NCBI GenBank assembly: GCA_030432235.1
Contig: JAUIHT010000003.1
Location: 124,001-188,000 of the forward strand
Direction of reading: 5' to 3'
DNA: 64,000 nucleotides
Origin: Verrucomicrobiia bacterium
GTDB lineage: Bacteria > Verrucomicrobiota > Verrucomicrobiia > Opitutales > Cerasicoccaceae
Both the position numbers and the translations under genes were made by a program. The notes below the pieces were generated by a model that did no database searches, was not told where the DNA came from, and saw only the letters and a list, made by a program, of their open reading frames with translations. Positions 37,104-60,718 of the stretch are shown piece after piece; position 1 is the first letter of the stretch, and each line of letters opens with the position of its first letter.

Positions 37104-37212
37104 AAAAAGGGTTTAGAAGCAGGGGTAAAAACCGCTTGAACGCGAACTAATGAATCCCGCTCCAGGGCTCATTAGCATTGCGCTGGAGAACGATAAGCGC
37201 TTGTGTTTGAGC

Positions 37213-41816: not shown

Positions 41817-44030
41817 TCAGCGCGTCGGCTGCCCGTAGGCAAAACCGGAGCCTGAGAAAGCGATGTAGACCACTCCGAAGACATCCTTGTCTCCGTCGAT
41901 GGCGTCAATCCAGTCGAAGATTCCCAGTGGATAGCTGCCGATTTTATCCCACGTCTTGCCTTCGTCGATGGAACGCCACATGCCGGTTTGCCCCTCGGCC
42001 ACACCCGCAGCGAATAGCGTCGGGTAGCCACCCGGCTCTTTGGATTTGCCAAAGCCGAAGTTGAAAGCCTGCTCGATTCCCGGCACGGCCACCCAGGACT
42101 CCCCGCCATCGGTGGAACGCCAAAGCCCGCCGACCGGAGTACCCTGGCTGCCTTCAGCGAACCACAGGTGGCCAGCGTGTCCCGGGGCAGCCTTGAGGGT
42201 GGCGTTGTAGCGCTCGGAAATCGGGTTACCGACTCGCAAAAAATGTGCCCCTCCATCGGTGGAGCGAAAGACGCCATGCTGATGCAGATAGAGGTAAAAG
42301 GTCGCGGGCAGAACACGATCGGCGCATAGGGCCTTAAGCGGCGAATAGTGATTGTTAAATCCGGTCTCTTGCACGTCCGTCACCACTGCCTGCTGCCAGT
42401 GTTCACCTCGGTCGGTCGTGAAATACGGGGGGTGGTTGTTAGCCGGAAGCCAGACAATGTTTTCGGTGCTCTCCGCCGAGACCGCAACGACCCCGTAGTC
42501 CAAAGCCTTGGGGGCAGTCCCATTCTCGATGGCGGGAAAGATAGTCCAATTAAGACCGCCGTCGGTCGAGTAACCGGACTCCTGAACATGCGGCGGGAAG
42601 CCGTTATGGTTACGGAAAACGCCCGCGATAAAATCGGGATCCGCCGGACACCAATCCAGCGACCAGGCAGACATGAAATAGGGAAACCCCCGCTCGGCAT
42701 TGTATTCTTCAGGCTGCGGAAAACGAAACACGCCGACATCCCACATGGCAGCGACTGGCTCGCCTCCGGGAGGCGCGATGACATCATTGCCACACGTTTC
42801 CTCGATGCCTTTGCTCGCGGCGTGCCATTCGATGTCACTGCCGGAAAGATCATTCGCCCACCAGACGCCAAAGCCTTCGGCAAACCAGAGCTTGCCCGCC
42901 GGATCAAAAACGCACTCGCCCACGCTCAGCCAATAGTTCTCTTGCTGACCGAGCCACAGGACATCATCGCTCGTCAGTGTGAAGCCTCGATGCGACCAGG
43001 ACTTACCCTGATCCCTGGAAACAAAGCCCTGACCGCCGGAGCACAGTACGACTAATAACTCCGGGTCTTTCGGATGCACCGCGATGCCCCAATAAGCCTG
43101 ACTGCCGCCCTGCTGATGCTTCGGCGTGATATTGACCCAGTCACCTTGGGCATATTTCCACACGGCCCCAGGGCTCGTTTCCGTCTTATTGGTAGCGACA
43201 TAATAAGTCCCGTCCGGGCCGAGGGTTGCTTCACGAATGTCCGCCGTGGACAACGGCGTATCCTCCGAGAGGGATTCCCAAGTCCTGCCCGCATCATCCG
43301 ACCTGAAAACGCCAACGCCGTTACTGGTCACATAAATATCCTGGGTGCGCAAAGCTCCCTCGTCCGATTTGCTCACGTCCGAACCGGGATTGAACACGAT
43401 GGTGTTGACGCCATGGGGTGCACTGCCTGCAGGGATGGCGGATACCTGTGTCCAGTGCCCTCCCGCATCAGCGGTATGCCACAAACCATCGTGGACGGAT
43501 CCGTAGTATACGATATCGCTGTTGTAAGGATCGACGGCCAGCCGCTCACCTTCCTGGCGCCCCTCGCCGTTCGGCTCCATCGCGACATCGTTTGAGGCGA
43601 AGTTGGTTACGCGCCAATGCTCGCCCCGATCCGAGCTGCGAAAGATTTCTCCCTGATAAGCCATGTAGGCAACGTCCGGGTCGGACGGCGCAGCGACCAG
43701 ACTGTCCACGCCGCGATAGCCACCATAATAAACGAATTCCTCCGGCAGGCTGGAAGCCGTCACGATCTGGCGCCATTTCTCTTCGGACGGAATCCAGCGG
43801 TAGGCTCCGGCAACATCGGTTCGGACATACATCAACCCCTTTTCGGTGGGATGGATATCCATGCCCACAACCCAGCCGCCACCGCCAATTTTCATCGGCT
43901 TCCAATCGTAAGCCTCACTGAGGTCCGCCGCCGAAGCCACCGTAAGCACACCAAGCAAAAGCCATAGAAGCATGCTTCCGGCATAAGACGTTTTCACGGT
44001 TTCACGGAGGGGACGATAGCAAGGAGTCAT
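41817..44030 (-). CDS. GH74-like secreted glycoside hydrolase (xyloglucanase type)
   Basis: About 737-residue exported enzyme made of two seven-bladed propellers. A signal peptide (MLLWLLLGVLTVASA) follows a short charged leader. The mature start YDWKPMKIGGGGWVVGMDIHP and VRTDVAGAYRWIP are hallmark GH74 sequences; the Asp in RTDVAGAYRW matches the first catalytic residue of the family. Asp-box or BNR-like turns recur (SSDRGEHWRV, SDDAGRTWESL, SRDQGKSWSH, STDGGLNWTI, STDGGAHFLRV, STDGGESWVAV). GH74 enzymes cleave xyloglucan; related beta-glucans are the alternative. It is divergent from the prepilin-like gene across a 375-bp gap. Confidence 0.88.
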   Translation of the reverse strand: MTPCYRPLRETVKTSYAGSMLLWLLLGVLTVASAADLSEAYDWKPMKIGGGGWVVGMDIHPTEKGLMYVRTDVAGAYRWIPSEEKWRQIVTASSLPEEFVYYGGYRGVDSLVAAPSDPDVAYMAYQGEIFRSSDRGEHWRVTNFASNDVAMEPNGEGRQEGERLAVDPYNSDIVYYGSVHDGLWHTADAGGHWTQVSAIPAGSAPHGVNTIVFNPGSDVSKSDEGALRTQDIYVTSNGVGVFRSDDAGRTWESLSEDTPLSTADIREATLGPDGTYYVATNKTETSPGAVWKYAQGDWVNITPKHQQGGSQAYWGIAVHPKDPELLVVLCSGGQGFVSRDQGKSWSHRGFTLTSDDVLWLGQQENYWLSVGECVFDPAGKLWFAEGFGVWWANDLSGSDIEWHAASKGIEETCGNDVIAPPGGEPVAAMWDVGVFRFPQPEEYNAERGFPYFMSAWSLDWCPADPDFIAGVFRNHNGFPPHVQESGYSTDGGLNWTIFPAIENGTAPKALDYGVVAVSAESTENIVWLPANNHPPYFTTDRGEHWQQAVVTDVQETGFNNHYSPLKALCADRVLPATFYLYLHQHGVFRSTDGGAHFLRVGNPISERYNATLKAAPGHAGHLWFAEGSQGTPVGGLWRSTDGGESWVAVPGIEQAFNFGFGKSKEPGGYPTLFAAGVAEGQTGMWRSIDEGKTWDKIGSYPLGIFDWIDAIDGDKDVFGVVYIAFSGSGFAYGQPTR

Positions 44031-44230
44031 CATGAGTTGAATGGCCGCATCTTGTCGGGCCAGCATACTCTCGTACTGAATATAGCCGCCAAGCAATGCT
44101 CAAGAGGCTTTCAGGCGGCTCTGTCCTGTTCCGCCGACGTACGCTCCCGGGACGTGATGTGATATTTGAGCTCAGGTGATTGAAATTTCAGCCGATCGGA
44201 CTAGGTATGGTTCTTTCACCACGCGCAAAT

Positions 44231-44244
44231 TACAAATGTTTGAA
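44231..44244. promoter_or_regulatory. Candidate LacI-type operator, copy 1
   Basis: Plus strand TACAAATGTTTGAA, complement TTCAAACATTTGTA, matching the sites at 56025 and 57119. It sits in the 375-bp gap 44031-44405 between the divergent GH74-like and prepilin-like genes, so it could serve both. Apart from this site and the TATAAT at 44285 I see nothing else in that gap. Confidence 0.6.
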
Positions 44245-44284
44245 TAGATGCCGGTTTGAAAACAAAATGCCAAAACGCACAATG

Positions 44285-44405: not shown

Positions 44406-47400
44406 ATGTTACCCAACAGTCGCCATATATCGAGGCAAGCGCGTAGCCAAAACCCGTTGCGCGGGGGCTTCGCTCTGATTGTGGCGCTGGGCCTCATGGC
44501 CTTCGTCATGCTGCTCCTCTTGAGCCTGGGCACTCTGGTGCAAATGGAAGCGGCCACGGCAAGCCAGAACCAGAATCAAATCGCGGCCCGGCAGAATGCG
44601 CTCCTGGGGCTGGAGCTGGCCTTGGGGCAACTGCAGAAACTGGCCGGGCCGGACCAGCGCATCACCGCTCCGGCCGGCATCGACAACAGCACCACCGAGG
44701 GTAAACAACACTGGACCGGTGCCTGGGCAGCAGGCCGCGAGGGCGGCACGGCCCCGGAGGACTTCAAAGGCTGGCTGGTCTCCCTGCCGGACGGTGTTAC
44801 CAACGCTCTGGATGAACGCGAAAACGACAATGTTGACTGGACGGCAGACAACCCGAACTGGGTGGAGCTCATCGGCTCGGGCACCGTTACCGACGGACAG
44901 TTGGCCGACTATGCGGCAGCGGGCAAAGTCTCCGTTGATGATGAGGGCACCTATGCTTTCTGGGTCGGCGAAGAGAACACCAAGGCACGCGTCAACCTGA
45001 CTGTGCCTGATAATATCCTCGCGGAGCATCCCGATCTGACGGCGCCGCGGCATACCGGTTTCGTCAGCCTCGATACCGCCTTTGACTCCATGTCGCCGGA
45101 CGACGCCAGTCTGGCCAAGCTCTCTTCCCTCAATGACCTGACCTCACTCACTGCCAGTGATTCTCTGGACAAGCAGTATTTCCATGATCTTTCCGTTTAC
45201 GGTCAGGGCGTCCAGGCAGACGCCAAGAACGGTGGGCTCAAAAAGGACCTCAGCCACCTCCTGGAAAGCGACACGGCTTTTCAGCGTTATTTTGGCGTCA
45301 GCCCCACCGGCTCGCCGGTCGGCAACTGGCCCGAGCCTTACGCTTTCCGGGCGACAGACAGCAACTACAGCTTCCCCTACGGTTCTCCCAACTGGGGCAT
45401 CCTCGCCTCCTACTATCGCCTGCACGACGAGGTCAGTAACGGCGCCTTGACCGTCATTCCGCCCCAGCCGAACGGCACTGGAGCAGCCATCGGCTCGGTC
45501 AGCTATTACGACCCGAGGGAAATCTATCAATACAACCAACCCGTCCATGCCGTGACCGCGACACTGGGCTTGGGGGTCGCACTGGAATTCAACTCCACGA
45601 CCGAACCGGACACCAGCGGAGGAACCACCACGACCTACCGTCCGGTTATTCATTTCAAGCCGATCATCGCTCTCTACAACCCCTACGACGTCAAACTGAA
45701 CACGGCAAAGTACGACTACAACTGGGAGTTCAAACCGACTATTCGCATCACCGTGGGGGACAACCCCACCGTGGCCTTCAACATGCAGGAAGTCCTGCCC
45801 GAGTCCAGCGGTTACGGCTCGTCGTTCCGTTGGCGTATTGAAAATGACACCAACCTGCTACCCGGCGAAACGCGCTACTATTCCCTCAATCAACCTTATG
45901 AGATGGAAGGCTCTACTTCTTTCCAAGACTATGCGCAGATGGAGGCCGACTGGAACGAAGACGGAGCCTACTACGTGGACCTGACTCAAAATGATTTTAT
46001 CAATGCCGCCACTATCGAGGGCAACACCGCCTCGCCCTACTCCAGTAATTCAACCAAGGATATCCCTGCTGAGCAGAAAAGTGCGCGCTTTGGCTTCACC
46101 GCCAATGAAATCGAGAACCTTCAAATCACTCTGCAAAGCGGCGAATCACCGAGTGCCGTTAACGTGCAAGTAGAGATAAGCTACGCACCAGTTAAAAATG
46201 GAGAGCATTACGAATCCCCAATGCGGGGCTATTACATGCGCACCGGTCCCAGCGGAAATGACAACCAGGCCTCCCAACTCGGCGACAGTTACTTCCAGGA
46301 GTACGAAGACGACATGCGTCCAGAGGATGTCGACTGGAGTGCCAATCTGGCCAATCTCTCAGTCGGCCCAATTGTGATTACCACCATCGAATTCAGCCTG
46401 CGCACGACCGAAGACACGGATGAGTCACACCGGCAGCTTATCGATGCGAACCCGCGCCCCATCATGCTCTCCGGCAAGGAAGAAGGTTATCGCGGCGGCA
46501 ACGGACTGTCGACCTACTCCGGGTGGACGATAAGAGAGTACGACATAACGCCAGAGCCCTCCATCGCGAATTTGGACCGCTTCTCCATGTATTGGGGAAA
46601 TACCCGCGACATCGACGTAGGTAGCGCCCCTGGTGCCGACTCCGTAGTTCTTTTTCATGTACCGCGCGAGCCACTAATTTCCCTGGGCAGCTTTCAGCAC
46701 GCCAACCTCGGGCGCTACAGCCGGGACCCCGCCTATATTTTTGGTAGCAGCTATGCCATCTCCAAGATACCGTCGAACCAAACGGAAACGACTTACACGG
46801 AAGGCAGCAACACCCGCCATGCCTACGACTGGTCGTACGCTATCAACAACGCCGTCTGGGACAGCTATTACTTTTCCACCCTGCCCCAGCCCGCCAGCGA
46901 TGCACTGGAAGCGGTGAACGAGCTGAGCACCGGTAGCGGCGTGTTGCCCAACCCGCGCCTTTCACTCCACGCGCCCCAAGGTTTCGAATTGGAGAACGAA
47001 GAACTCGCAACGCTCCTGACCGACGAATCGGCCAGCGACACGGCCGAGCTGAGTGCCGCCTTCTTGATGGCCAACGGAGCCTTCAACGTAAACTCCACCT
47101 CGGTCGAGGCCTGGAAAGCCTTTCTCGCCAGCAACTCCAACCTGGAGGTTCCCGTCTACAGCCCGCAGACCAGCGCGCTGTCCACCTACGAACAGGAGCA
47201 GGAAGCGATCTTCTTCCGCTCACCCATTTCCTACGACAGCGGATTCTCAGGCGACGAAGACGGTCAGAACTTTTGGAAAGCCTATCGCAAGCTCGACGAA
47301 GGCGAACTGAACGATCTGGCCCAGGCCATCGTCAATGAAGTCAAAGTCCGCGGCCCGTTCTCATCCCTCGGTGATTTCATCAATCGCCGCCCCGGTTCAA

Positions 47401-47846
47401 GTGACCCCGAGCAGCGTCGTCGCGGCCCCCTGCAGGCCGCCCTCGACAAGACCGTCAACCAGCCTTTGAATCAGAACCTCATCGGCACGACCCGCGGCAA
47501 CGCCTTGACCATTCCCAATTTCGCCACGGATGTGTTCAACGACGAGGACGCCGCCGGCACGGGCATGCCCGGGTGGGTGCTACAAGGCGATGTCCTCCAG
47601 CCACTCGGTCCACTGATGACGGTGCGCTCGGACACCTTCCGCATACGTGCCTACGGTGACCACATCAACCCCCTGTCCAATAAGATCGAGGCCAAGGCGT
47701 GGTGCGAAGCCATCGTCCAGCGCATACCGGATCCGGTCATTTCAACTCAAACCCCCACACGCTCCGAACTGGTGGATGCGCCGACCGTTCTTGGCCGACA
47801 GTTTCGCATCGTGGCTTTCCGCTGGCTCAACAAAGAAGATGTCTAA
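44406..47846 (+). CDS. Giant prepilin-like protein (type IV pilin-like N-terminus)
   Basis: 1146-residue protein with a type-IV-prepilin-like start. A basic leader ends RG/G, followed by FALIVALGLMAFVMLLLLSL (residues 22-41), so cleavage is predicted between Gly21 and Phe22. Next comes an amphipathic helix (QNQIAARQNALLGLELALGQL) and about 1050 residues of extracellular sequence rich in Ser, Thr, Asn and Tyr. No catalytic motif is recognised. The N-terminus resembles the large PilX-like or Verru_Chthon-type proteins of Verrucomicrobiota. ATG 44406 is chosen from the leader. It overlaps the next gene by 8 nt and shares the glycan locus. Confidence 0.82.
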   Translation: MLPNSRHISRQARSQNPLRGGFALIVALGLMAFVMLLLLSLGTLVQMEAATASQNQNQIAARQNALLGLELALGQLQKLAGPDQRITAPAGIDNSTTEGKQHWTGAWAAGREGGTAPEDFKGWLVSLPDGVTNALDERENDNVDWTADNPNWVELIGSGTVTDGQLADYAAAGKVSVDDEGTYAFWVGEENTKARVNLTVPDNILAEHPDLTAPRHTGFVSLDTAFDSMSPDDASLAKLSSLNDLTSLTASDSLDKQYFHDLSVYGQGVQADAKNGGLKKDLSHLLESDTAFQRYFGVSPTGSPVGNWPEPYAFRATDSNYSFPYGSPNWGILASYYRLHDEVSNGALTVIPPQPNGTGAAIGSVSYYDPREIYQYNQPVHAVTATLGLGVALEFNSTTEPDTSGGTTTTYRPVIHFKPIIALYNPYDVKLNTAKYDYNWEFKPTIRITVGDNPTVAFNMQEVLPESSGYGSSFRWRIENDTNLLPGETRYYSLNQPYEMEGSTSFQDYAQMEADWNEDGAYYVDLTQNDFINAATIEGNTASPYSSNSTKDIPAEQKSARFGFTANEIENLQITLQSGESPSAVNVQVEISYAPVKNGEHYESPMRGYYMRTGPSGNDNQASQLGDSYFQEYEDDMRPEDVDWSANLANLSVGPIVITTIEFSLRTTEDTDESHRQLIDANPRPIMLSGKEEGYRGGNGLSTYSGWTIREYDITPEPSIANLDRFSMYWGNTRDIDVGSAPGADSVVLFHVPREPLISLGSFQHANLGRYSRDPAYIFGSSYAISKIPSNQTETTYTEGSNTRHAYDWSYAINNAVWDSYYFSTLPQPASDALEAVNELSTGSGVLPNPRLSLHAPQGFELENEELATLLTDESASDTAELSAAFLMANGAFNVNSTSVEAWKAFLASNSNLEVPVYSPQTSALSTYEQEQEAIFFRSPISYDSGFSGDEDGQNFWKAYRKLDEGELNDLAQAIVNEVKVRGPFSSLGDFINRRPGSSDPEQRRRGPLQAALDKTVNQPLNQNLIGTTRGNALTIPNFATDVFNDEDAAGTGMPGWVLQGDVLQPLGPLMTVRSDTFRIRAYGDHINPLSNKIEAKAWCEAIVQRIPDPVISTQTPTRSELVDAPTVLGRQFRIVAFRWLNKEDV

Positions 47847-48579
47847 GGCAAAGCACAACCACCCGGCATTTCCCGGCGCGCTTCCCCTGTTTGCAGCAGC
47901 CATCTGTCTGCTCTTTTCCGCTCCCACCTCTCAGGCGCAAGAGCCCGAGACCATCTCGATTCGCTTCCAGACATTGTCGTGGCAGGACTCCATTAACGAC
48001 CTGTACTACTTCGACGCAGGCAACCCCGTTTCCTTGTTCATTCCCAACGGCGCGCCCGGCGCTAAATTGTCCTACAGCGGTCCTCCGGTGATGGGCTTCT
48101 ACAAGCAGCGCACTGGCCCCGAAGGAGAAGTACTCTACGACCGCATCGCGTCCGTAAACCTGTCGCCGGGACAAAGGCAGTGCCTGTTGCTCTTCATCCC
48201 CGTGTCCGGGGAGAGCGGCGAAAAACAACCGTACCGAATCCTGCCACTGACGGACACCAACCGCGACTTTGGCCCCAACGCCTTTAACATCTACAACCTC
48301 ACCCGTTCGACCATGGCGATTCGCCTGGGAGAGGAACAATTCAGAATAAGCCCCGGCGGAAATCATGTCGTCCAGCCTGCTGAACTGGGGACCAAAAATG
48401 TCGATGTCCAAATGGCCGCGAATGCCCAGGACACTAACTGGACGCTGATTTATCAATCGAGATGGGCGACCCCCGGGAAGCGGCGCGCCTGGGTATTCAT
48501 CTACCAGGATGCGGACTCCAAACCGAGCATCCGCAAGTACTATCAAATCGCTCAAACGACTCCCACGCCCGAGCTCTGA
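47839..48579 (+). CDS. Secreted partner of the giant prepilin-like protein
   Basis: 246-residue exported protein, unrecognised. A signal peptide (ALPLFAAAICLLFSAPTSQAQ) precedes a beta-rich domain (SIRFQTLSWQDSINDLYYFD, NPVSLFIPNGAPGAKLSYSG, YRILPLTDTNRDF, WTLIYQSRWATPGKRRAWVFIYQD). The gene starts inside the last 8 nt of the prepilin-like gene, so the two are translated together. The overlap suggests that the two proteins form a surface complex. That is inference from linkage. Confidence 0.75.
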   Translation: MSKAKHNHPAFPGALPLFAAAICLLFSAPTSQAQEPETISIRFQTLSWQDSINDLYYFDAGNPVSLFIPNGAPGAKLSYSGPPVMGFYKQRTGPEGEVLYDRIASVNLSPGQRQCLLLFIPVSGESGEKQPYRILPLTDTNRDFGPNAFNIYNLTRSTMAIRLGEEQFRISPGGNHVVQPAELGTKNVDVQMAANAQDTNWTLIYQSRWATPGKRRAWVFIYQDADSKPSIRKYYQIAQTTPTPEL

Positions 48580-48610
48580 TTCGCCGGGGCGATTGAGCAC
48601 GACCAAGCAC

Positions 48611-49486
48611 ATGAGAACATGCATTTTCATTCTCGCAGGCATCGCGCTGCTCGGCACACACATGCGCCTCAATGCCGTGACTGTTGAGCAGGATGTGGCT
48701 TATCTGGGCCCCGACCGCGAAGAAAAGCTGGATGTGTACCTGCCGGACCCGCTGCCCGCGGATCCCATACCAGCCATGGTAATCATCCATGGCGGCGGCT
48801 GGGCTCACGGCGACAAGGCAAAGCCCCGCATGCAAGCCATCGCCCAAACGCTGGCCGAGGAAAGCTACGCCGTATTTTCCATCAACTATAAGCTCAACAT
48901 CGGCACCCGGGATCCCGAAACCAACAAATACACGCTGAGCTTTCTGGCATGGCCGCAAAACTTCCTCGATTGCAAATCGGCCCTGCGATACGTGCGCGCC
49001 CATGCGGAGCAATACGGTGTCGACCCGGACCGAATCGGACTGCTGGGTGCATCGGCAGGCGGGCACCTGGCCATGCTGGTAGCGGCGACCGCCAACGATG
49101 CCGGGATGAACCAACAAGGGCTTTATCCGGAGCAATCGAACGACGTTTCCTGCATCGTCAACATGTATGGAGTCTACGACACCGAAGGTAAACCGCTCTC
49201 ACCACTGATGGGCGCTACCTGGGAACAAAAGAAAGCCATGGGCAAGGAATCATCCCCCAAGACTTATTTCGACGAAGAGTTGCCACCGATGCTCATCCTG
49301 CACGGCACAAAGGATAAAACGGTGTCCGTGGAGGAGTCCCGCTCACTGACTGCATACCTCGACACCCTTGGCACGCCTTATCACTACGAGGAGATTGTCG
49401 ATGCGCCGCACAGCTTCGACCTTCAGCCGGAACAAAAGGACCTGCGACCCGTGGTTCTTGAGTTCCTGCAAAGCAACTTGAAGTAA
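48611..49486 (+). CDS. Secreted acetyl esterase-like alpha/beta hydrolase
   Basis: 291-residue esterase with a signal peptide (MRTCIFILAGIALLGTHMRLNA), which sets the start at ATG 48611. The oxyanion motif VIIHGGGWAHGDK, nucleophile elbow LGASAGGHLAML, acid region LHGTKDKTVSVEES and catalytic His in APHSFDLQ complete the triad. Enzymes of this kind deacetylate or deferuloylate plant or algal polysaccharides. Its place 31 nt after the partner gene in the glycan locus supports such a role. The exact ester is unknown. Confidence 0.87.
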   Translation: MRTCIFILAGIALLGTHMRLNAVTVEQDVAYLGPDREEKLDVYLPDPLPADPIPAMVIIHGGGWAHGDKAKPRMQAIAQTLAEESYAVFSINYKLNIGTRDPETNKYTLSFLAWPQNFLDCKSALRYVRAHAEQYGVDPDRIGLLGASAGGHLAMLVAATANDAGMNQQGLYPEQSNDVSCIVNMYGVYDTEGKPLSPLMGATWEQKKAMGKESSPKTYFDEELPPMLILHGTKDKTVSVEESRSLTAYLDTLGTPYHYEEIVDAPHSFDLQPEQKDLRPVVLEFLQSNLK

Positions 49487-49488
49487 GG

Positions 49489-51606
49489 TCAACGCGCTGC
49501 TTGTTCGAGCCGCACCGAAACGCTGCTTCTGGCCTGGATGCCGACGCAGACGTTACGCCCGTTTGTTTCACAGAGGTTGCACTGGTCGGGGTTTGCGATG
49601 GTGGTGTTTTTGGGCAGGGCGAGGCGGACGCGATCTTCGTCGGGGCTGAAGTTGGTGATGCCGATGTGCCAGGGGCGTCCATCGGGTAGGAGCAGGACGG
49701 AAACGTCGGTGCGGGGGCCTTTTTCGATTAGCGAAACTGTTGGCGTCAGTCGCGGACGCAGCAGCTGCATGAGCACGTCGCAATAGGCCAGGGTCGCCTC
49801 CCGGGATGCGGCTTGCTCCATTTTATGTCCGAGCACGAATGGGATGTGCAGGTAGTCGCCTTCGCCCAGTTTGCGTTTTGCCAGAGCCGGCAAGCCATCG
49901 TCGGTACGCAGGGGAATCTCCACTTCGTCAGCGCAGCGCAGGGTTTGAAAGTAATCGTTGTGCAGTGGCAGCTCGTGACCGGGCAGTGAAATCGTGCGCG
50001 ACCCGCGACAGGAAAAGTTAGCTTCCTCAATGCCAGTCAACTCATGCAACCCGAAGCCCGGAGCATAGTGCTGAAGATTCCCGTCGTTATCCAAAAGCCC
50101 GAAGCGGGCATCCGTAACGAGCGTGCCGCCGCGCTTCATGAAAGCGGCCAGAGACTCGGCAAACGCAGGCGTCAGCGCGGGCAGGCAGGGGGCGATCAAC
50201 ACGCGGATGTCGTCGGGGATGCCTACGTCCTTTAGGCGTTGCGGCGCGAGGTAACGCGGGCTGATGCCGCTTCGCCAGAGGGCTTGAAACCAGCCGCGGT
50301 GCGCGTCGGTGTAAAAGGTTCCGGGCGGCGTGGTGGCCTCCCCTTCGCCGATGGCGGTCAGGAGCCGCTCCATATCCGGGTCGAAAACGATGGCGCAGCC
50401 GCTGTCATCGGGACGGGAGCAGGTCAGCGCGGACGCGTGCTCCTGGACAAAGCGCGCCACTTCCGAAGCCTGCCGGGCGAAGTCGTTCGGCGTGCCGTCG
50501 AAGTCGGTCAACCCGCGCCCGGCCACCTGACGCCCGCGGCGGAACGGGCGGTACTTCCAATAAATCAACCCCTGGATGCCGTGGAAAACAGCCTGGTAAC
50601 TCCACAGCGCAATCTCGTCGCTCATCGATGAATGCTCGGTCGGAAACAAGCAGCGGTTCTGCGTCATCAGCTCGGAGATGATCGTCTGCTTGCCGTCGGC
50701 CACGCTCAGGGCATGCCGCCAGAACTGCGGCCAGAGCCAGGCGTCCGACTTCCACCAGATTTTCCCCAGCATGTTGGCGTAGCACGAGAGGCCGAGCACG
50801 TCGCTGGCCTCAACCACATCCCAGTCGCTCGCGCCGAAGTAGCTGCCGGTGCGGTTGTGCAACACATCGCTGCCGAGCACATCGGCGAACAAGGGCGTGT
50901 CCGGATCAACCTCGCGAATGACGGAACGCCACCAGTGCATCTGCGCCGTGAAGTCGGCCGAACGAAAGCGCTGCCAGTCGCGCTCCGCCACGACCGACGA
51001 CCATGACCAGACGCGGAAGTTGGGCGGTACTTTGGTGATGGCATCGAAAGCGGTGAAGTAAGTGGCCCAGGCATCGTTGAGCGCCTGGATGCCGCCTCCG
51101 TACTGCTTTTGCAAATAGGCCGTGAATGCCAGGATGGTTTCCGGCGAGCGTGAGCAGTTGCCAATCTCGTTAAAAATATCGTAGGCCAACAAAGCCGGGT
51201 GCCCCTTGAAATGCGTCGCCACCTCGCGCAGGTATTGCTCAAGCAACGCCTCTTTGTGCGGCTGGTGAAAACCGTTCTCACGGTAGCTCTCCGCCTGCGC
51301 ATAGCCAAAACACTCCGGCGCGTCGGCGTCCTGCATGACCTGCCCCTGCAGCTCCAGCACGACCTTGAGCCCCAGCCCTGCGCAGCAGTCCATAAGCGCG
51401 TCGATGGTAGCAAAAGCCGTGTCTCCCGGCCTCGGAGCATCCCACCGGCTCACGCTCGGGTAAAGCACCACCGTGTTGAAGCCCAACTCAGCCATGTTCT
51501 GCAAATCCCGCCGCATCTCCTCAAGCGGCACACCACGCTCAGCCAACAACACCGCACCAAAAGGAAGGCTCTTCAGCGGCAGCGAATCAAGAGGAGGAGT
51601 TGACAT
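49489..51606 (-). CDS. GH42-like beta-galactosidase
   Basis: 705-residue glycoside hydrolase with a TIM barrel of the GH42 kind. Strand-end motifs are FNTVVLYPSVSRWD, LLAYDIFNEIGN (acid/base Glu147) and KQTIISELMTQN (nucleophile Glu312). A trimerisation-like alpha/beta domain follows at about residues 400-600 (IRVLIAPCLPALTPAFAESLAAFMKRGGTLV). There is no signal peptide, so it acts in the cytosol on imported oligosaccharides. This fits the adjacent sugar symporter, which is encoded just upstream on the same strand. Beta-galactosidase is the likeliest activity; other beta-glycosides are possible. Confidence 0.87.
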   Translation of the reverse strand: MSTPPLDSLPLKSLPFGAVLLAERGVPLEEMRRDLQNMAELGFNTVVLYPSVSRWDAPRPGDTAFATIDALMDCCAGLGLKVVLELQGQVMQDADAPECFGYAQAESYRENGFHQPHKEALLEQYLREVATHFKGHPALLAYDIFNEIGNCSRSPETILAFTAYLQKQYGGGIQALNDAWATYFTAFDAITKVPPNFRVWSWSSVVAERDWQRFRSADFTAQMHWWRSVIREVDPDTPLFADVLGSDVLHNRTGSYFGASDWDVVEASDVLGLSCYANMLGKIWWKSDAWLWPQFWRHALSVADGKQTIISELMTQNRCLFPTEHSSMSDEIALWSYQAVFHGIQGLIYWKYRPFRRGRQVAGRGLTDFDGTPNDFARQASEVARFVQEHASALTCSRPDDSGCAIVFDPDMERLLTAIGEGEATTPPGTFYTDAHRGWFQALWRSGISPRYLAPQRLKDVGIPDDIRVLIAPCLPALTPAFAESLAAFMKRGGTLVTDARFGLLDNDGNLQHYAPGFGLHELTGIEEANFSCRGSRTISLPGHELPLHNDYFQTLRCADEVEIPLRTDDGLPALAKRKLGEGDYLHIPFVLGHKMEQAASREATLAYCDVLMQLLRPRLTPTVSLIEKGPRTDVSVLLLPDGRPWHIGITNFSPDEDRVRLALPKNTTIANPDQCNLCETNGRNVCVGIQARSSVSVRLEQAAR

Positions 51607-51624: not shown

Positions 51625-53049
51625 TTAGAGTTTGCCCCGCCGTTCCTCGAGCAGGCCACGAATGTCAGACAGCTTGTCGCGATTGAGCGGATAAAATAGA
51701 ATGAGCAGGAGCGAGAACAACCATATGACCACCGGCATCAGGAGGAAGAGCCATTTCATGCGCTCCAGCACTTCCGGTGGCTGTTCAGCCAACAGGACAT
51801 CAAAGCCCGAGATTTCCAGCATCAGCCCGCCGAGTCCCATGGCCAGCGTGTTGGCGGCTTTGAGAAACCAGGAGTAGAACGCATTCAGGGCGCCTTCCCG
51901 GCGGCGGGTCGTGTCCATCTCGTCATAGTCGGCCACGTCGGCTTTCATCGAAGGGAGGAAAAGCCAGAAGGCCGAGAACCCACCCGCCTGCATGGCTGCG
52001 GGAATGAGCTGCAGGTAAGGCATGCCCGGTATGAGGCAGAAATAGTAAAGCAGATGCCCAACCATCGCAATGATGAGCACCGCGGCAACCAGCGACTTCT
52101 TGTCGTACTTCTCGCTGAGCCAGGTCAGCAAAGGCAGCGACAATATCCCGACGGCCACCATGGTGGTGTAACGCCAGCCATCGACGACCGAGGCCTCGGC
52201 CAACTGACCGCCGTTGATCAGGTAAATATTCACGTACTGCCCCAGGCTGGCCACTGATGCGTTACCCAGGGAGAGAAAGAACGACGCCCCGATAAGAATC
52301 CACAGCGGCCTGCAGCGAAAGGTTTCCCGGATGCTTTGCCAAAAGGGATCCTTGGGCTGCTTCTTCGCCTCTTTCTCATAATAACGTTCCTTGACGAAAA
52401 GCGCCGGCAGAAGGCCCACCACAACGATGAGCGCCGCCATCACCCAGCTGCAGCTGCGCACGCCATTGACGATGTCAGGCTCGCCGGTCTCGGGATTCGC
52501 AAACCACGGCCCCGTGACAATAGCCATGATCCAGCCACCGGCAAGCGCGGTCAGCTTGCCAAAGAAAGACATCCAGGCGGTCAGTCGGGTGCGCTCGTCA
52601 TAGTTGGGAGTCAGCTCCAACTGCATGCCATAGTAAGGCATGGACCAACACGTGAACGAGGTGAAGAAAAGCCACCCGATAACGAGCAGGTAAAAGAACA
52701 TTCCCATCTCGCTCCATCCCTCCGGCGGACGCCAAAGGAACGGATAAAGGCATGCCGTGACGATCGCCCCGACGAACATGAAGGGGCGGCGACGGCCCCA
52801 GCGCGTGCGGGCATTATCGGAGATGTTGCCCATCAGCGGATCGGATATCGCATCCCAGGCCCGCAGGATCATCAAACACAAGCCCAGCAGCATGGGGCTT
52901 ATCTTCAAACCGATGTTGAAGTACGGCATCCACAGCATGCTGACCGTTACCGTGGTGGCGAAATAATCCATCTTCCCACCGATGGAGAAAGCTATCTTTT
53001 GCCCGAATGGTATCCGGTCAGACTCCGGGATATGGGCTTTGCGGGACAT
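51625..53049 (-). CDS. GPH-family sugar:cation symporter (MFS)
   Basis: 474-residue transporter with twelve predicted helices, of the glycoside-pentoside-hexuronide (MelB-like) family. The diagnostic loop is LRAWDAISDPLMGNISDNARTRWGRRRPFM. Others are MELLELTP-like QLELTPNYDERTRL and SFFGKLTALAGGW. It would bring oligosaccharides into the cell for the GH42-like enzyme encoded 18 bp downstream. Its own start lies 67 bp after the FAD oxidoreductase gene, so the three minus-strand genes form an apparent operon controlled from the divergent promoter at 56 kb. Confidence 0.92.
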   Translation of the reverse strand: MSRKAHIPESDRIPFGQKIAFSIGGKMDYFATTVTVSMLWMPYFNIGLKISPMLLGLCLMILRAWDAISDPLMGNISDNARTRWGRRRPFMFVGAIVTACLYPFLWRPPEGWSEMGMFFYLLVIGWLFFTSFTCWSMPYYGMQLELTPNYDERTRLTAWMSFFGKLTALAGGWIMAIVTGPWFANPETGEPDIVNGVRSCSWVMAALIVVVGLLPALFVKERYYEKEAKKQPKDPFWQSIRETFRCRPLWILIGASFFLSLGNASVASLGQYVNIYLINGGQLAEASVVDGWRYTTMVAVGILSLPLLTWLSEKYDKKSLVAAVLIIAMVGHLLYYFCLIPGMPYLQLIPAAMQAGGFSAFWLFLPSMKADVADYDEMDTTRRREGALNAFYSWFLKAANTLAMGLGGLMLEISGFDVLLAEQPPEVLERMKWLFLLMPVVIWLFSLLLILFYPLNRDKLSDIRGLLEERRGKL

Positions 53050-53116: not shown

Positions 53117-55972
53117 TCAAAGACCGATCCCGGCGAAAGCCTGACGAACGAAGTTACGCTCATCCTGCTGATAGGCCAAAGCCTCCTCATGCGGCGTCAG
53201 CCCCAACTTGAGGCGTATGCGGCAAAGCACCAGATGCAGTTGCCAGGCATGGTCTTCGCGCACCGGGGGCAGGTAGTGATTCGTCAACTGCTTCTGCTCC
53301 TGCTTGCGCAAAGTCCGCGCGATGGAGTGCGATGGCGACAGCGTCCTGTCAGCCATGGGCCCGGCCAAGCGTTCAATCATCTGTTCCGCATCGGCAGGCG
53401 AAATCACCTGCCGGTCCACCAGACGCTCAAGGGTCAAGGCCAGCGAGCTGCGCACATTGAGAATGTTATCCGGCTCCTTCGCCAATTGCTGCAAGGCCGG
53501 CACGCACTGGGCCGTCCCACAGCAACGCAACAGGATAACCGCCAGCAACCAGAAGGGGATATCGATCTCCTGGCCGTAGGCGCCCATATTCTCGGAAGGG
53601 TCCGTTTCGCCTTCCTCGCGTTGCTGAATAGCCGCGACGAGACGCGCTTCCGCCAAGGGCTCTTCCCACATCGCCAAAATGCAGGCGGCGTAGAAGGACG
53701 CATTGGGCAAAGGCGAATCCAGCAGCCCAACGACGGCCTCGCGGTACTGCGCCCGATTACGATAGACAAGCCAGAGCGGCACTCCGGACTCCCCTTTCGC
53801 CAAATGTGCAAGCGGCTCTTCTATTTTTGCCCGCTCCAACGCATCCACTGGAGCAGTAGGAAAAGCGGCCATAGCCGCACGCAGCATCTCAATCGACACC
53901 GCCCGGGACTGACCGCCCCCACCATTCCGGGACGCCAAAGCCGCAGCCGCCCCGGCCGCTTCGCCCAGGCGCTGCATGTCTCGCTGCATGCGGATACCAT
54001 AAAAGACATTGGCGCTCATGCCGGCGGCGCGACAGGCAATCCACACATTCTTCAAGCCCCTGGGCAGGAGCATGCGGTACGGTAACTGAGCCCTGAGCGG
54101 GTAACGGAAGAGCCGGCACACCCAGTAAAAGAACACAGTCTCGTCATCCTCGAATTCGAAATCGACGGAATGGGTATCGGCATGCGCTCCCGCCCGGCCG
54201 ATGGCATCTTCGAAATGCCTCTCCGAAATCAAATCGTCCATCCTGAGCGTGTAATCGGTCACGATATGGCGTGACTCGCGAATGCCCAGAAGGGGCGCAA
54301 AGAGCAGGGGCAGCATCGTCTCGTCACGCTCATCCTGATAGTACTGGGCAATGCCCGTCAGGCGTGCGCGGGAGAGGTCCAGCGCATCGGTCGCATTCAC
54401 CCAGCCGGCATCGAAGTTTCGCGGGCGTACTGTTATCTCGGGCCTGTCCCGGTTGAGCGTGAACGCCGCCTGTGAGAAAGCCAGCGTCCGGGAATCCCCC
54501 ATCCGCCCCGAGGTGAAATCCGCCCCCGCATAAGAGCACAGATCCCCGTCCCCGGTGCTATCGACAAAGGCCTGTGCGCTGACCCGGGTAAGTGCGCCTT
54601 TGACCATGGCGAGAACGGATTGTACCGTCCCGCCGTCAAGCTCTGCACCGCAAAGCAAGGACTCCCCGAAAAAGCGAACGCCCAGGGAATCGAACTCAGT
54701 GAGTATGGCGACCTTCTTGGCCTCATGATGCCAGGACCTTTCGTCCACCTCGTAACTACTGCCCAGGAAAAGCTCTGTGAGCTCGGCAGTCAGGCGGCCG
54801 AGCGCTTCCTGGCGGCCGCCGGGCAAGCCGTAAAAGTAGCCCGTAATACCGCCTCCGGTGCCAATCCCTCCGGGGAACGGCGCAAACTCCAGGGCAACCG
54901 TATCCGCACCCTGCGACGCCGCAGCCAATATCGCCAGCGAACCCGCCGTACCGGAACCTGCAACCATCACATCGCAATCCAGCTCCTGCCGAACGAGCAG
55001 TGAATCCGCACCCAGGTCCGGCAGGACCTCAAGGTTCATCCTGCCGCTGGCAAATCTGAATGACTCGACGGCATCGGCTCCCCGTTGATAGCGCTCAGGG
55101 ATACTACGCAAGCCCTCCCCTGCCAGCGCAGGGCTCAGCACAAGCAGATTCGGCGGCAAGTTGGCAGGCAGCGCTGGCTGCGCCGCGCCGTACACCGGAA
55201 ACGCCATCTGGGAAGTATGGCTGACAAGCGGGCGGCCCTTTACCCCCACGGATTCGCGTACATGGCGAAGTCGTTTCAGCACTGCCTGGTGCCAGGGCTC
55301 GCCCTCGTCCTCCCAAACCAAGTGCCGCTCCGTCGCGCGCACCGCTTTGCGCCACTGCATTCCCCGAGCCTCGGCATACTCGGCGAAAAACTTATCTATC
55401 GGCTGCCAGTCTGCGGATTGAAATACGATGCGGCAGCGCTTTGATTCCGGCTCCAGCGCCGGAGCGGCCTGTCCCAAAATGCAATTCACCAAGGCGCCGT
55501 TTTCCGTAGCATCGACCCAGTTACGTGCGCGTACACGCCGGAATCCTTCTTTCGTGGCAAATACGATAGCGGCAAGTGAATCATCCTGGTGCTGCGCGGA
55601 AACAGGAACGGCATACAGCAGGGTGCGTATCGCATCACTCTGCGCAAGCTCACGAGCCGCCGTCATCTCGGCGACGACAGAATCGAATACCCCATCACTC
55701 GTCGCGGATTGCGCCTCCAGGGTTTTCAGCCAGAGAGTCCAATCCGCACCTGAAGCGTTACCGGTGAGGCCGTTCTCCAAAGCCGCGGACGACTCCCAAA
55801 GCAATTGCCCGCCCGCATCACTCAGCAGAACGCGCTGGCCGCGCAGGGCCAGTTTTTTGGCGGCAGCATACCCGGTAAAACCCGCGCCGTGCACCACAAC
55901 ATCGAAAGCTTCCGGAAAGAGATCCTGCACACGCGAGGTGCTTTTTACTGGAGGGTAGTTTAGCGAAATCAT
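53117..55972 (-). CDS. FAD-dependent oxidoreductase with two Rossmann motifs and HEAT-like tail
   Basis: 951-residue protein. An N-terminal dinucleotide-binding motif (DVVVHGAGFTGYAAAKKL, about residue 24 onwards) is followed by about 300 residues. A second motif (CDVMVAGSGTAGSLAILAAA, about residue 333 onwards) then starts a complete FAD_oxidored-type domain, with PGGIGTGGGITGYFYGLPGG and FVDSTGDGDLCSYAGADFTSG. The C-terminal 230 residues look helical and repeat-like. The arrangement suggests duplication with partial decay of the first copy. ATG 55972 is preferred to GTG 55987. Similar oxidoreductases occur in sugar-degradation loci, and the substrate here is unknown. Confidence 0.85.
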   Translation of the reverse strand: MISLNYPPVKSTSRVQDLFPEAFDVVVHGAGFTGYAAAKKLALRGQRVLLSDAGGQLLWESSAALENGLTGNASGADWTLWLKTLEAQSATSDGVFDSVVAEMTAARELAQSDAIRTLLYAVPVSAQHQDDSLAAIVFATKEGFRRVRARNWVDATENGALVNCILGQAAPALEPESKRCRIVFQSADWQPIDKFFAEYAEARGMQWRKAVRATERHLVWEDEGEPWHQAVLKRLRHVRESVGVKGRPLVSHTSQMAFPVYGAAQPALPANLPPNLLVLSPALAGEGLRSIPERYQRGADAVESFRFASGRMNLEVLPDLGADSLLVRQELDCDVMVAGSGTAGSLAILAAASQGADTVALEFAPFPGGIGTGGGITGYFYGLPGGRQEALGRLTAELTELFLGSSYEVDERSWHHEAKKVAILTEFDSLGVRFFGESLLCGAELDGGTVQSVLAMVKGALTRVSAQAFVDSTGDGDLCSYAGADFTSGRMGDSRTLAFSQAAFTLNRDRPEITVRPRNFDAGWVNATDALDLSRARLTGIAQYYQDERDETMLPLLFAPLLGIRESRHIVTDYTLRMDDLISERHFEDAIGRAGAHADTHSVDFEFEDDETVFFYWVCRLFRYPLRAQLPYRMLLPRGLKNVWIACRAAGMSANVFYGIRMQRDMQRLGEAAGAAAALASRNGGGGQSRAVSIEMLRAAMAAFPTAPVDALERAKIEEPLAHLAKGESGVPLWLVYRNRAQYREAVVGLLDSPLPNASFYAACILAMWEEPLAEARLVAAIQQREEGETDPSENMGAYGQEIDIPFWLLAVILLRCCGTAQCVPALQQLAKEPDNILNVRSSLALTLERLVDRQVISPADAEQMIERLAGPMADRTLSPSHSIARTLRKQEQKQLTNHYLPPVREDHAWQLHLVLCRIRLKLGLTPHEEALAYQQDERNFVRQAFAGIGL

Positions 55973-56024
55973 GTCTACTGATTTCACTTTAGCATTTGTT
56001 GACTTGACGTCAGTCCGGCATCAG

Positions 56025-56038
56025 TTCAAACATTCGAA
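56025..56038. promoter_or_regulatory. Candidate LacI-type operator, copy 2
   Basis: TTCAAACATTCGAA, nearly a perfect palindrome, directly abutting the ATG of the LacI-type gene and within the 66-bp divergent gap to the FAD oxidoreductase gene. A repressor here would block its own translation-start region and could control the minus-strand operon. Same motif as at 44231 and 57119. Confidence 0.65.
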
Positions 56039-57052
56039 ATGGCCGCTAATGTCACCATCAAGGACATCGCAAAACGGGCAGGCGTCCACTTTTCGACCGT
56101 ATCGCTGGCCTTGCGAAACGACCCCAGGCTGGCGGAGGCAACCCGCCAACGAATCCGGCTCTTGGCGGACGAGATGGGCTACGTCCCGGACGCGACCCTG
56201 AAGGCGCTATGCGCGTATCGTGAGTCCAATCGCCCGCATCCCGTTCGCAGCGGTCTGGCCTATCTTTCCGACAAACGCCTCGGCGATCCCTTTGGCAGTA
56301 TGGTCTTCCGCTATGCGCAGAAGCAAGCGGCTCAGCTGGGTTATAATCTGCAGTATTTCAGCCTGAAAGAGGAAGGCATCACCCTCAATCGCCTGCGCTC
56401 CATCTGGTGGAACAGCGGCCTGAAAGGGGTCCTCATCGGCACCTTCGAAAACCCCGGAACCGTACTTGATGATGACTGGGAGCAATGGATTTGCGTAGCC
56501 TACGGCTACTCAGTCGAAAGTCCCAACTTCAATCGGGCCGTACAGGATCTATTCACGAACATGACCAAGCACCTGGCCACGCTGCGACAGCGCGGCTATC
56601 GCCGTATCGGCCTGCACCTGCCCAGCAACCTTAGCCAGCGGACGCACGGGCTGCTGCATGGTGCCTATCTCTTTGATCAAACAAAGCACAAGTCGGCCCG
56701 CATACCGGTATTAAGCAAGGACCTCTACACGCCCGAGGATGTGCTCGACTGGATAAAAAAACATAAACTCGATTTGGTTATGGCCGATCCGGTGGTGTAC
56801 CAACTCCTTCAACAAACGCGCTTGAGCATCCCCGAGGATGTCGGTTTCTCGCTGCTCTCCTGGAAGAATTATGACCCCGACAACCCCAAGCATTGCGCCG
56901 GGTACGACATGAAAGCGGAAACCCTGGCCGCCAATTCCATTTCCTTTCTCGTCTCGCAAATACACGAAAACAATTACGGTCTTTCCGACACTCCGAAATG
57001 CTTGATGGTTACAGGACAGTTTCACGACGGAGAGACCATTCGCCCTGCTTAA
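56039..57052 (+). CDS. LacI-family transcriptional regulator
   Basis: 337-residue sugar-responsive DNA-binding protein. The N-terminal HTH (VTIKDIAKRAGVHFSTVSLALRNDPRLAEATRQRI) is typical of the family; the hinge helix follows about residue 50. Residues about 65-335 form the periplasmic-binding-like effector domain (RSGLAYLSDKR, IGLHLPSNLSQRTHG, VMADPVVYQLLQQ, DVGFSLLSWKNYD). The last part ends CLMVTGQFHDGETIRP. No Shine-Dalgarno sequence is visible because the palindrome occupies that place, so translation may be weak or start from a leaderless transcript. It probably controls the surrounding glycan locus. Confidence 0.93.
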   Translation: MAANVTIKDIAKRAGVHFSTVSLALRNDPRLAEATRQRIRLLADEMGYVPDATLKALCAYRESNRPHPVRSGLAYLSDKRLGDPFGSMVFRYAQKQAAQLGYNLQYFSLKEEGITLNRLRSIWWNSGLKGVLIGTFENPGTVLDDDWEQWICVAYGYSVESPNFNRAVQDLFTNMTKHLATLRQRGYRRIGLHLPSNLSQRTHGLLHGAYLFDQTKHKSARIPVLSKDLYTPEDVLDWIKKHKLDLVMADPVVYQLLQQTRLSIPEDVGFSLLSWKNYDPDNPKHCAGYDMKAETLAANSISFLVSQIHENNYGLSDTPKCLMVTGQFHDGETIRPA

Positions 57053-57118
57053 AAGCTCTCATTCCCCAGTCAAAGAGCACCGAAAATCGCCACCCTTGAG
57101 TGCATTTGGCGCCCCAAT

Positions 57119-57132
57119 TGCAAATGTTTGAA
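57119..57132. promoter_or_regulatory. Candidate LacI-type operator, copy 3
   Basis: Plus strand TGCAAATGTTTGAA, complement TTCAAACATTTGCA, matching the sites at 44231 and 56025. It lies 92 bp upstream of the PEP-CTERM gene start and 67 bp after the LacI gene stop. Confidence 0.6.
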
Positions 57133-57224
57133 TGAACCATACCTTGAGCGGAAGTTACCTTAAGCTCATAAACGAAAAATCAAAAAACCCCGATAAACAT
57201 CCAACCCTACAGAATAAGATTACT

Positions 57225-60241: not shown

Positions 60242-60716
60242 AGTTAAGATATGGCTGTCTCCCGGCCACGACTTCAAGGGACGCTACGGGCAGGGCCGAC
60301 TCGAAAACGGCGTCCTGTCACTGCCGGAAGTGGAATGCCACGCCGGACGCGGCTTGGCAGGTGACCGCTACTATGACTTCAAGCCGGATTATAAAGGACA
60401 GGTGACTTTCTTCGACGTGAATGTGCTCGAAGAGCTTGCGGACGCGTTGAATCTGTCGGAGGTTGATGGTTCCCTGCTGCGCAGGAATATCCTTATGTCC
60501 GGCATCGACCTGAATACCCTCATCGGGCAACGCTTCCGCCTTGGTGAAGTGGAGTTGTCAGGTAGCGAAGAGTGCGCGCCCTGCTTTTGGATGGATGAAG
60601 CCGTTGCGCCCGGTGCCTTCGAGTGGCTCAAAGGCCGCGGCGGTCTGCGCTGCCGCATTCATACCGATGGCTTGCTGAGATGCGGCGGGCAAACCCTCGA
60701 ACTTTTACCCCAATAA
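60207..60716 (+). CDS. MOSC domain protein
   Basis: 169-residue member of the MOSC family, related to the molybdenum-cofactor-binding domain of sulfurases. The beta-barrel core includes the SPGHDFKGRYGQGRLE opening, VECHAGRGLAGDRYYDF, and LLRRNILMSGIDLNTLIGQRFRLGEVEL. The conserved cysteine is in EECAPCFWMDEAVAPG. It starts at GTG 60207 with GTG 60222 as an alternative; no strong ribosome site is seen. It precedes moeA by 2 bp and is the first gene of the Moco operon, suggesting a role in cofactor handling or sulfuration. Confidence 0.85.
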   Translation: MYKLTVAYSVDIVKIWLSPGHDFKGRYGQGRLENGVLSLPEVECHAGRGLAGDRYYDFKPDYKGQVTFFDVNVLEELADALNLSEVDGSLLRRNILMSGIDLNTLIGQRFRLGEVELSGSEECAPCFWMDEAVAPGAFEWLKGRGGLRCRIHTDGLLRCGGQTLELLPQ

Positions 60717-60718
60717 TC

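Follow-up and report, generated by a model that had tools for sequence, protein, structure and literature searches.

A giant prepilin gene and its coupled partner

This analysis concerns two adjacent genes, one encoding a giant prepilin-like protein (the giant) and the other a smaller secreted protein (the partner), in a 64,000-nucleotide stretch of DNA (the window) from a Verrucomicrobiia bacterium of the family Cerasicoccaceae (contig JAUIHT010000003.1, positions 124,001 to 188,000, forward strand). An earlier note, made from the window sequence alone, proposed that the pair forms a pilin-type surface device within a glycan locus. The finding is larger than that note described: the source genome holds 35 copies of the giant, and the pair recurs elsewhere in the phylum.

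The giant, a putative GspK-type prepilin of 1146 amino acids (aa), is encoded on the forward strand at 44406..47846, from an ATG at 44406 to a stop codon at 47844-47846 according to the sequence and the list of open reading frames (ORFs); an alternative in-frame TTG start at 44256 would yield 1196 aa. Its first 21 residues (44406..44468, forward strand) form a class III leader ending at Gly21, with Phe as the next residue, as the earlier note had read it. The leader/mature junction has MLPNSRHISRQARSQNPLRGG on the leader side and FALIVALGLMAF on the mature side, the leader being basic and a long hydrophobic stretch following the Phe. In all 35 copies the leader (6-38 aa) ends in Gly and the mature protein begins with Phe, the site having been located with a pattern that permits Phe or Ala after Gly; leader lengths and copy sizes (1010-1375 aa) depend on the start codons chosen. 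Mature position 5 is V, I, A, L or T in every one of the 35 copies and never Glu. The absence of Glu5 is a GspK trait.

Pfam searches at E up to 1 return nothing for either the giant or the partner, which agrees with the earlier statement that the giant carries no known domain. That statement had placed the extracellular region on a 1.1-kDa scale; estimated from its length, the figure should be about 125 kDa. The best NCBIfam matches of the window giant are to the Verru_Chthon cassette protein A family TIGR02600 (17.7 bits; cut-off 332.3) and to GspK of the type II secretion system (T2SS; NF037980, 15.2 bits; cut-off 130). Both are confined to the N-terminus, the former to the first 59 positions. 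Among the 35 copies at E up to 0.1, TIGR02600 matches 17 (best E 1.8e-7) and T2SS GspK matches 16 (best E 2.4e-6).

The partner (246 aa; 47839..48579, forward strand) begins with an ATG at 47839-47841, in a different frame from the giant and within its last 8 nt, as reported previously. Its N-terminus resembles a signal peptide, and its model (mean predicted local distance difference test, pLDDT, 89.1) suggests two beta-sandwich domains, in keeping with the beta-rich secreted protein first described. By a simple rule, each of the 35 partners in the genome has an AxA-like site after a hydrophobic stretch and lacks a lipobox. The nearest folds to the partner model are the PepT2 extracellular domains (Z 12.8; 176 residues, 4.2 Å) and AlgF domains (Z 8.4-8.6). 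As a tandem beta-sandwich is a common fold, no function was drawn from these likenesses.

Copy number and distribution of the pair

The 35 giant copies were found in a genome of 5.72 Mb on 42 contigs: one search returned them in 91 pieces, and a profile search gave 36 matches, of which two are parts of one split gene. The other 34 loci were retrieved with their flanks for comparison. A further giant was suspected in a long ORF with a Pfam T2SSK match (C7:337099), which by eye proved to be DNA polymerase III alpha.

Iterated profiles detected a partner homologue in all 35 loci, and a partner lies directly downstream in 32 of them, its start falling between -24 and +27 nt relative to the giant's stop. 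The three exceptions have the partner about 7 kb upstream (L026), upstream on the other strand (L036) or just upstream (L035). Within the bacterium's family, the giant occurs in all 10 genomes examined (4-36 matches each) and the partner in the same 10 (2-36 matches), with giant and partner counts correlating at r 0.985.

Across the phylum, 96 of 387 sampled genomes contain a giant match at E 1e-20; at most two candidates were scored per genome, so that this survey gives no copy numbers. From at least 545 relatives in titled public genomes, the best 80 were taken, a sample biased towards closer, intact copies. The partner is directly downstream (-220 to +300 nt) in 74 of these 80, lies elsewhere in three and was not found in three. 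The titled loci include Cerasicoccus, Coraliomargarita, Luteolibacter, Haloferula, Persicirhabdus, Rariglobus and a Kiritimatiellota chromosome. Of 34 further loci, 27 belong to other genomes of the family and 7 lie outside it; the partner is present in 33, and in the remaining one (L129) the sequence ends inside the giant and the downstream side is absent. When 20 deliberately distant loci were scanned with a partner profile widened by its own hits, 16 were found to carry a partner, with a single partner for two giants in L171; the four lacking one are those of genus g69. Given 35 homologues in one genome and the recurrence of the pair across the phylum, the association is not due to chance, and the recurrence in Verrucomicrobiota that the earlier note had supposed is borne out.

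In one genus (g69, which may be Akkermansia, with genomes of 2.2-3.5 Mb), two giants are adjacent, in tandem or divergent, in three of four loci; the fourth, L168, has one.

Predicted fold of the giant and its relation to GspK

The model of the giant, built from the 35 sequences, has a mean pLDDT of 74.3 and a predicted template modelling score of 0.82. Secondary structure assigned by DSSP comprises a helix at residues 22-80 and mixed alpha/beta structure thereafter. The long N-terminal helix (44469..44645, forward strand) would correspond to the filament-forming alpha1 of pilins.

When the 1000 best Foldseek candidates were re-aligned with VIA-align, the highest scores fell to 9a1f_T (Z 11.5), 5vtm_X (Z 11.3) and 3ci0_K (Z 11.0), all of them GspK/XcpX chains. 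The alignments cover 258, 220 and 242 residues, respectively, with root mean square deviations of 3.0-3.4 Å, and include most of each chain. In GspK, an alpha-domain is inserted into the pilin core. Only these three chains exceeded Z 8, the next row standing at Z 5.2. Foldseek alone also placed 3ci0_K (GspK of enterotoxigenic E. coli) at the top, but weakly (E 0.053).

An alignment of 24 phylum-wide giants matched one of 30 canonical GspK sequences over 80 N-terminal residues (hhalign, 92%, E 6.5e-7), and an alignment of the genome's own 35 copies did so at 63% (E 6.9e-5). Hydrophobic helices match easily, so the N-terminal profile match offers modest support only. Further along, the motif FNVNSTSVEAW (residues 893-903; 47082..47114, forward strand) is proposed as the counterpart of the GspK 'VNxNTA' motif: residues 893, 894, 896, 902 and 903 (or their neighbours) are invariant in the 35 copies, and the best, non-significant hhalign placement sets it on GspK VNINTA. 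With the genome's own copies, a likewise non-significant placement sets the giant's DE-x-x-K motif on GspK DETGR/DESGK.

From the model, the giant reads as a GspK core carrying an inserted region of about 700 residues (about 200-885), with bounds deduced from the GspK superposition and the motif placements. Structure comparison brought no carbohydrate-binding family to prominence among the giant's matches. For residues 381-656, matches to CsgC, GH2 side domains, Ig-like domains, pore-forming toxins and a Big_2-CBM56 protein, among others, reach Z values of about 4-5 and were not counted as evidence. Sequence searches of the PDB with the giant and partner alignments returned nothing convincing.

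Conserved core and variable centre of the proposed insert

In the core blocks (residues 1-120, 161-200 and 881-1146), 9 of 11 blocks of 40 residues show 45-61% identity. The C-terminal core at residues 961-1146 (47286..47843, forward strand), defined by conservation, DSSP of the model and the fold alignment, would consist of a helical region and the final strands. The core motifs are among the best-conserved parts of the protein, both in the 35 paralogues and phylum-wide.

The centre of the insert (residues 361-720; 45486..46565, forward strand) is, from the alignment, the most variable part of the giant: 7 of its 9 blocks of 40 residues show 13-25% identity, the highest reaches 38%, and gaps amount to as much as 60%. 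This region, which contains beta strands in the model, is proposed to be a specificity head.

Glycan neighbours, synteny and a candidate operator

The earlier note had set the pair among GH74, GH42, esterase and pectate-lyase-fold genes. Pfam confirms the last three: an esterase of the BD-FAE family (48509..49486, forward strand), whose start may be further downstream; a GH42 beta-galactosidase family enzyme without a signal peptide by eye (49489..51606, reverse strand); and a pectate-lyase-like protein (PF12708; 58201..60039, forward strand). The GH74 assignment is plausible, not proven. The beta-propeller protein in question (41817..44096, reverse strand, start uncertain) matches Sortilin-Vps10/BNR families, with an NCBIfam F510_1955 glycosylhydrolase match below cut-off, and is possibly GH74-like. 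Pfam further identifies an MFS_2 sugar transporter (51625..53049, reverse strand), a FAD-dependent oxidoreductase (53117..55987, reverse strand) and a LacI-family regulator (56039..57052, forward strand).

Six of these genes form one conserved block in Cerasicoccus frondis, with identities of 67% for the giant, 55% for the partner, 62% for the esterase, 72% for GH42, 90% for the transporter and 67% for the oxidoreductase. The loci of two further giants, L031 and L032 (46-47%), likewise keep their neighbours in C. frondis, so that three loci of that species preserve the pair and its flanks. In JB024 the giant and partner are retained together with a LacI gene, a 45% homologue of the window regulator. 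With its best own locus, each of these syntenic loci has 2-6 genes in common at 45% identity or above (the partner counted where it passes), against a mean of 0-0.18 genes with the other 34. Whether the pair stands beside glycan genes in other genomes was judged from synteny only, the flanking genes kept at the C. frondis counterpart of the window locus including GH42 and the esterase.

A survey within the genome took two called genes from either flank of each of the 35 pairs (140 genes, scanned in two halves), some of which may be spurious ORFs. Tallies cover the 25 most frequent families of each scan (from totals of 62, 62 and 155), and so are lower bounds for flanks and controls alike. The flanking genes include 14 LacI-type sensor domain matches, six sulfatases in one half, and at least two members each of GH1, 2, 4, 10, 16, 38, 42 and 94. 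In 132 control genes, drawn from 33 random regions, neither a GH family nor a LacI domain reached two members, and sulfatases numbered two. Of the 35 giants, 14 have a LacI-type gene within 5 kb, against a random mean of 4.7 (1 of 2000 placements reached this number), and 19 have one within 10 kb, against a random mean of 7.4 (none of 2000 did so); 58 of the 59 LacI-type matches were used.

A shared candidate operator of 17 nt, which the earlier note had also reported, occurs three times in the window: upstream of the giant (44229..44245, forward strand, exact ATTNCAAATGTTTGAAT), at the start of the ORF 57132-58118 (57117..57133, forward strand, exact ATTNCAAATGTTTGAAT) and, found by pattern search with two mismatches, between the divergent oxidoreductase and LacI genes (56024..56040, reverse strand). 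Three sites compare with 0.15 expected in 64 kb, and none of 100 shuffles gave three or more; the pattern was derived from two of these sites (repeat D18), which makes the count partly circular. Because two sites defined the pattern, independent support comes from the third and from a single-mismatch copy that lies upstream of the giant orthologue in C. frondis (L200:7794-7810). With up to three mismatches, C. frondis has three matches in 19 kb, a number equalled in 1 of 200 shuffles.

Elsewhere in the window, MoeA and MobA-like molybdenum cofactor genes adjoin the glycan locus (60623-63017), and a gene at 37150-38442 encodes a Radical-SAM-like protein that, by motif, we take to resemble anaerobic sulfatase-maturating enzymes.

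Secretion machinery and small pilins in the genome

GspG (155 aa), GspH, GspI and GspJ, an ordinary GspK of 381 aa, and GspL and GspM, all named by reading of their sequences, are encoded in a single operon, with a GspE-type ATPase nearby; the T2SSE ATPase family has 10 matches in the genome. No giant occupies the position after GspH, I and J in this operon, where the ordinary GspK is found. Since that GspK is present, the giants are additions to it rather than replacements. Another GspK-like gene was located at C37:18303. Pseudopilins of 164, 171 and 212 aa form a second set (L089:7096-9293; C37:16-28 kb), close to which are a GspK-like gene and an ATPase.

The small-pilin motif N_methyl has 73 matches in the genome. 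None of the 35 giants has one within 3 kb, the mean for random placement being 3.7. As a separate observation, some small pilins adjoin a secreted protein of about 290 aa (L099:6215-7893, L100:7272-9154 and L102:2437-4449); the pilin was recognised by an N_methyl match in L099 and L100 and by a pilin-like start, by eye, in L102. The secreted protein of L099 bears a PEP-CTERM motif. These modules are accompanied by LacI genes (L099 and L100), an SSF transporter (L099) and a sulfatase (L100), and 22 of the 73 N_methyl matches have a LacI-type gene within 3 kb.

Comparison with known systems

With GspK/XcpX/PulK the giants have in common the class III leader, the long N-terminal helix and a predicted fold in which 220-258 residues superpose at 3.0-3.4 Å. 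They differ in size (1010-1375 aa, against 259-295 residues in the solved chains) and in their large insert. Moreover, the 35 giants lie outside the T2SS operon, are coupled to a secreted partner and score below the curated GspK cut-off.

Verru_Chthon cassette protein A belongs to a cassette with proteins B, C and D. Like the giants it is a Verrucomicrobiota giant (1296 positions) with a GspK-like start, and the two families match at the N-terminus over 67 residues (97%, E 8.8e-11). In five of six loci it carries the motif DDE-[ST]-x-K-[IV]-N-[IV]-N (longer form AFWTDDE-x-x-K-[IV]-N-[IV]-NTA), which resembles the motif of the giants, and a consensus of four sequences contains an LTTKSNTFTV stretch that by eye is like their C-terminal RSDTF motif. 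From its sequence, protein A looks like another giant GspK. The giants fall below the 332.3-bit membership threshold of TIGR02600 (best E among the 24 phylum-wide giants, 8.2e-10); by sequence, protein A is a cousin of theirs. TIGR02600 was found in 2 of 115 genomes, and the giant family had no match at E 1e-20 in either, with two candidates scored for each genome.

Modular minor pilins that bind glycans are already known from Streptococcus. PilC of Streptococcus sanguinis is a glycan-binding modular minor pilin that is stabilised by PilA and modelled at the filament tip (PMC9934059). The likeness lies in a minor pilin with an extra module, the giants carrying theirs on a predicted pilin core, and would extend to a stabilising partner, a tip position and glycan binding. 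The Streptococcus proteins belong to a type 4 pilus of a host-associated bacterium, however; the partner is itself a pilin, the lectin module serves adhesion, and the part of the study consulted reports no GspK core (PMC9934059).

In one genome, that of Verruconatronum alginivorum, a PulG-like pseudopilin has at least 67 homologues; its gene cluster rose on alginate (one proteome per treatment), and the authors trace parts of that cluster to Cerasicoccaceae (PMC13274419). These PulG-like proteins probably correspond to the small N_methyl class. The giant-partner pair is not described in the accessible portion of that paper, and our literature searches found no description of it, in accordance with the earlier note's statement on the pair's function.

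SusC/SusD systems of Bacteroidota have a locus-specific glycan-binding component that is co-regulated with the enzymes of its locus, and a TonB-driven transporter. The giants resemble them in being locus-specific components that may be regulated with locus enzymes. They differ from these TonB-driven systems; at E 1e-4, the TonB-dependent receptor barrel family has five matches in the genome. With so few barrels, the many glycan loci cannot each have such a transporter, which favours a capture role for the giants without proving it.

Proposed mechanism and alternatives

GspK caps the tip of the pseudopilus, whose assembly it may prime, and a T2SS substrate is reported to interact with that tip (PMC4471445). 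Taken together with the known pilins that bear glycan-binding modules, this tip role makes exchangeable tips, one per polysaccharide locus, the simplest reading. It is proposed, with moderate confidence, that the giants are locus-specific pseudopilus tips which, with their secreted partners, handle the polysaccharide of their locus. Of the earlier proposal of a pilin-type device, pilin-type membership stands, with the addition of a predicted GspK fold. A free-standing device does not, since the GspK fold is that of a T2SS pseudopilus tip subunit.

Each giant would be a tip subunit of GspK type in a type II secretion or type IV filament pseudopilus, enlarged by an insert of about 700 residues whose centre varies between copies. 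With such a fold it should need shared machinery, encoded elsewhere in the genome, which would build the pseudopilus. Each polysaccharide locus would contribute a tip of its own, and a local regulator, putatively of the LacI family, would turn it on alongside the locus enzymes. The Sec-exported two-domain partner, made in step through coupled translation, may bind the head as a co-folding or adaptor subunit. At or just below the secretin, the tip would recognise the locus polysaccharide and either pass it to the secreted enzymes or pull it in on retraction.

Several results weigh against this interpretation. For the fold, evidence for GspK at the sequence level is restricted to the N-terminal hydrophobic helix. 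In hhalign, the giants had no match to the genome's single own GspK (the 30-member GspK alignment was built for this reason), and their C-terminal and insert pieces gave no significant match to GspK. Pfam T2SSK (PF03934, cut-off 24.2 bits) has no match over cut-off in the genome, and the giant model falls below pLDDT 50 in several insert stretches, with 74 overall. Blocks 241-280 and 761-840 of the insert are conserved at 42-46% identity, so the insert is not variable throughout.

For the setting, L035 is the best match (45-47%) of the giants in two titled loci, and neither locus has a neighbour in common with it. A Mantel-type test over 593 locus pairs, two pairs of physically overlapping loci having been excluded beforehand, found no relation between giant similarity and the sharing of neighbours (Spearman 0.02, a value reached in 727 of 2000 permutations); more are shared only by the 8 locus pairs above 45% giant identity (mean 1.9). 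The operator core was not found beside the JB024 orthologue, where the full pattern occurs once, with three mismatches and not upstream of the giant. Finally, none of the four loci of genus g69 (L167-L170) has a recognisable partner, even with the widened profile.

Binding of polysaccharide by the head is preferred; a close rival, which fits the data almost as well, has the head bind the locus enzymes. As an account of the whole system this second possibility is rated as less probable, though still to be taken seriously. The variable head and the partner would recognise the secreted GHs, esterases and sulfatases of the locus and load them for export, and polysaccharide would never be bound. 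The G-H-I-J-K-L-M operon, the signal peptides seen by eye on the GH74-like protein and the esterase, and the reported contact of a T2SS substrate with the GspK-capped tip are all consistent with it, as is the suggestion, made by the authors of the V. alginivorum study, that alginate lyases are exported by a T2SS (PMC13274419). The GH42 enzyme fits it less well, having no signal peptide by eye. One T2SS normally exports many substrates with one GspK, and an ordinary 381-aa GspK is present here too. In addition, a Pseudomonas xcpX (GspK) transposon mutant reportedly still secreted (PMC6211770), which weakens the view that GspK itself chooses cargo.

It is unlikely that the giants are inner-membrane-anchored glycan-binding proteins that use a class III leader and never enter a filament. 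The lack of an N_methyl pilin gene within 3 kb of any giant would suit such an anchor, whose GspK core could be a relic. Yet the core motifs are among the best-conserved parts, which is unexpected of a relic, and a T2SS operon is present.

Very improbably, the giants are tips that serve a different function of type IV filaments (DNA uptake, adhesion or gliding) and have glycan genes nearby because such loci are frequent: the 10 T2SSE ATPase matches indicate that several filament machines may exist, but LacI-type genes lie closer to the giants than at random, their neighbours are richer in GH families than the controls, and the window orthologue retains its glycan neighbours.

Implications for polysaccharide use in Verrucomicrobiota

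Carried furthest, and here doubtfully, the preferred reading of polysaccharide-handling tips would have Verrucomicrobiota exchange the tips of a single retractable pseudopilus. The giant GspK tips, numbering in the tens and each provided with a partner and a regulator, would capture their particular glycan at the secretin and draw it to the periplasm, in a SusD-like manner without a TonB transporter for each glycan. Verrucomicrobiota are major polysaccharide degraders, which raises the question of how they seize glycans without large SusC/SusD sets. A near one-to-one association of a giant putative tip with a partner, present in tens of copies, many of them in regulated glycan loci, makes that question testable and hints at an undescribed route by which these bacteria handle polysaccharides. 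If the proposal is true, the tip of a secretion system can diversify into a family of exchangeable heads.

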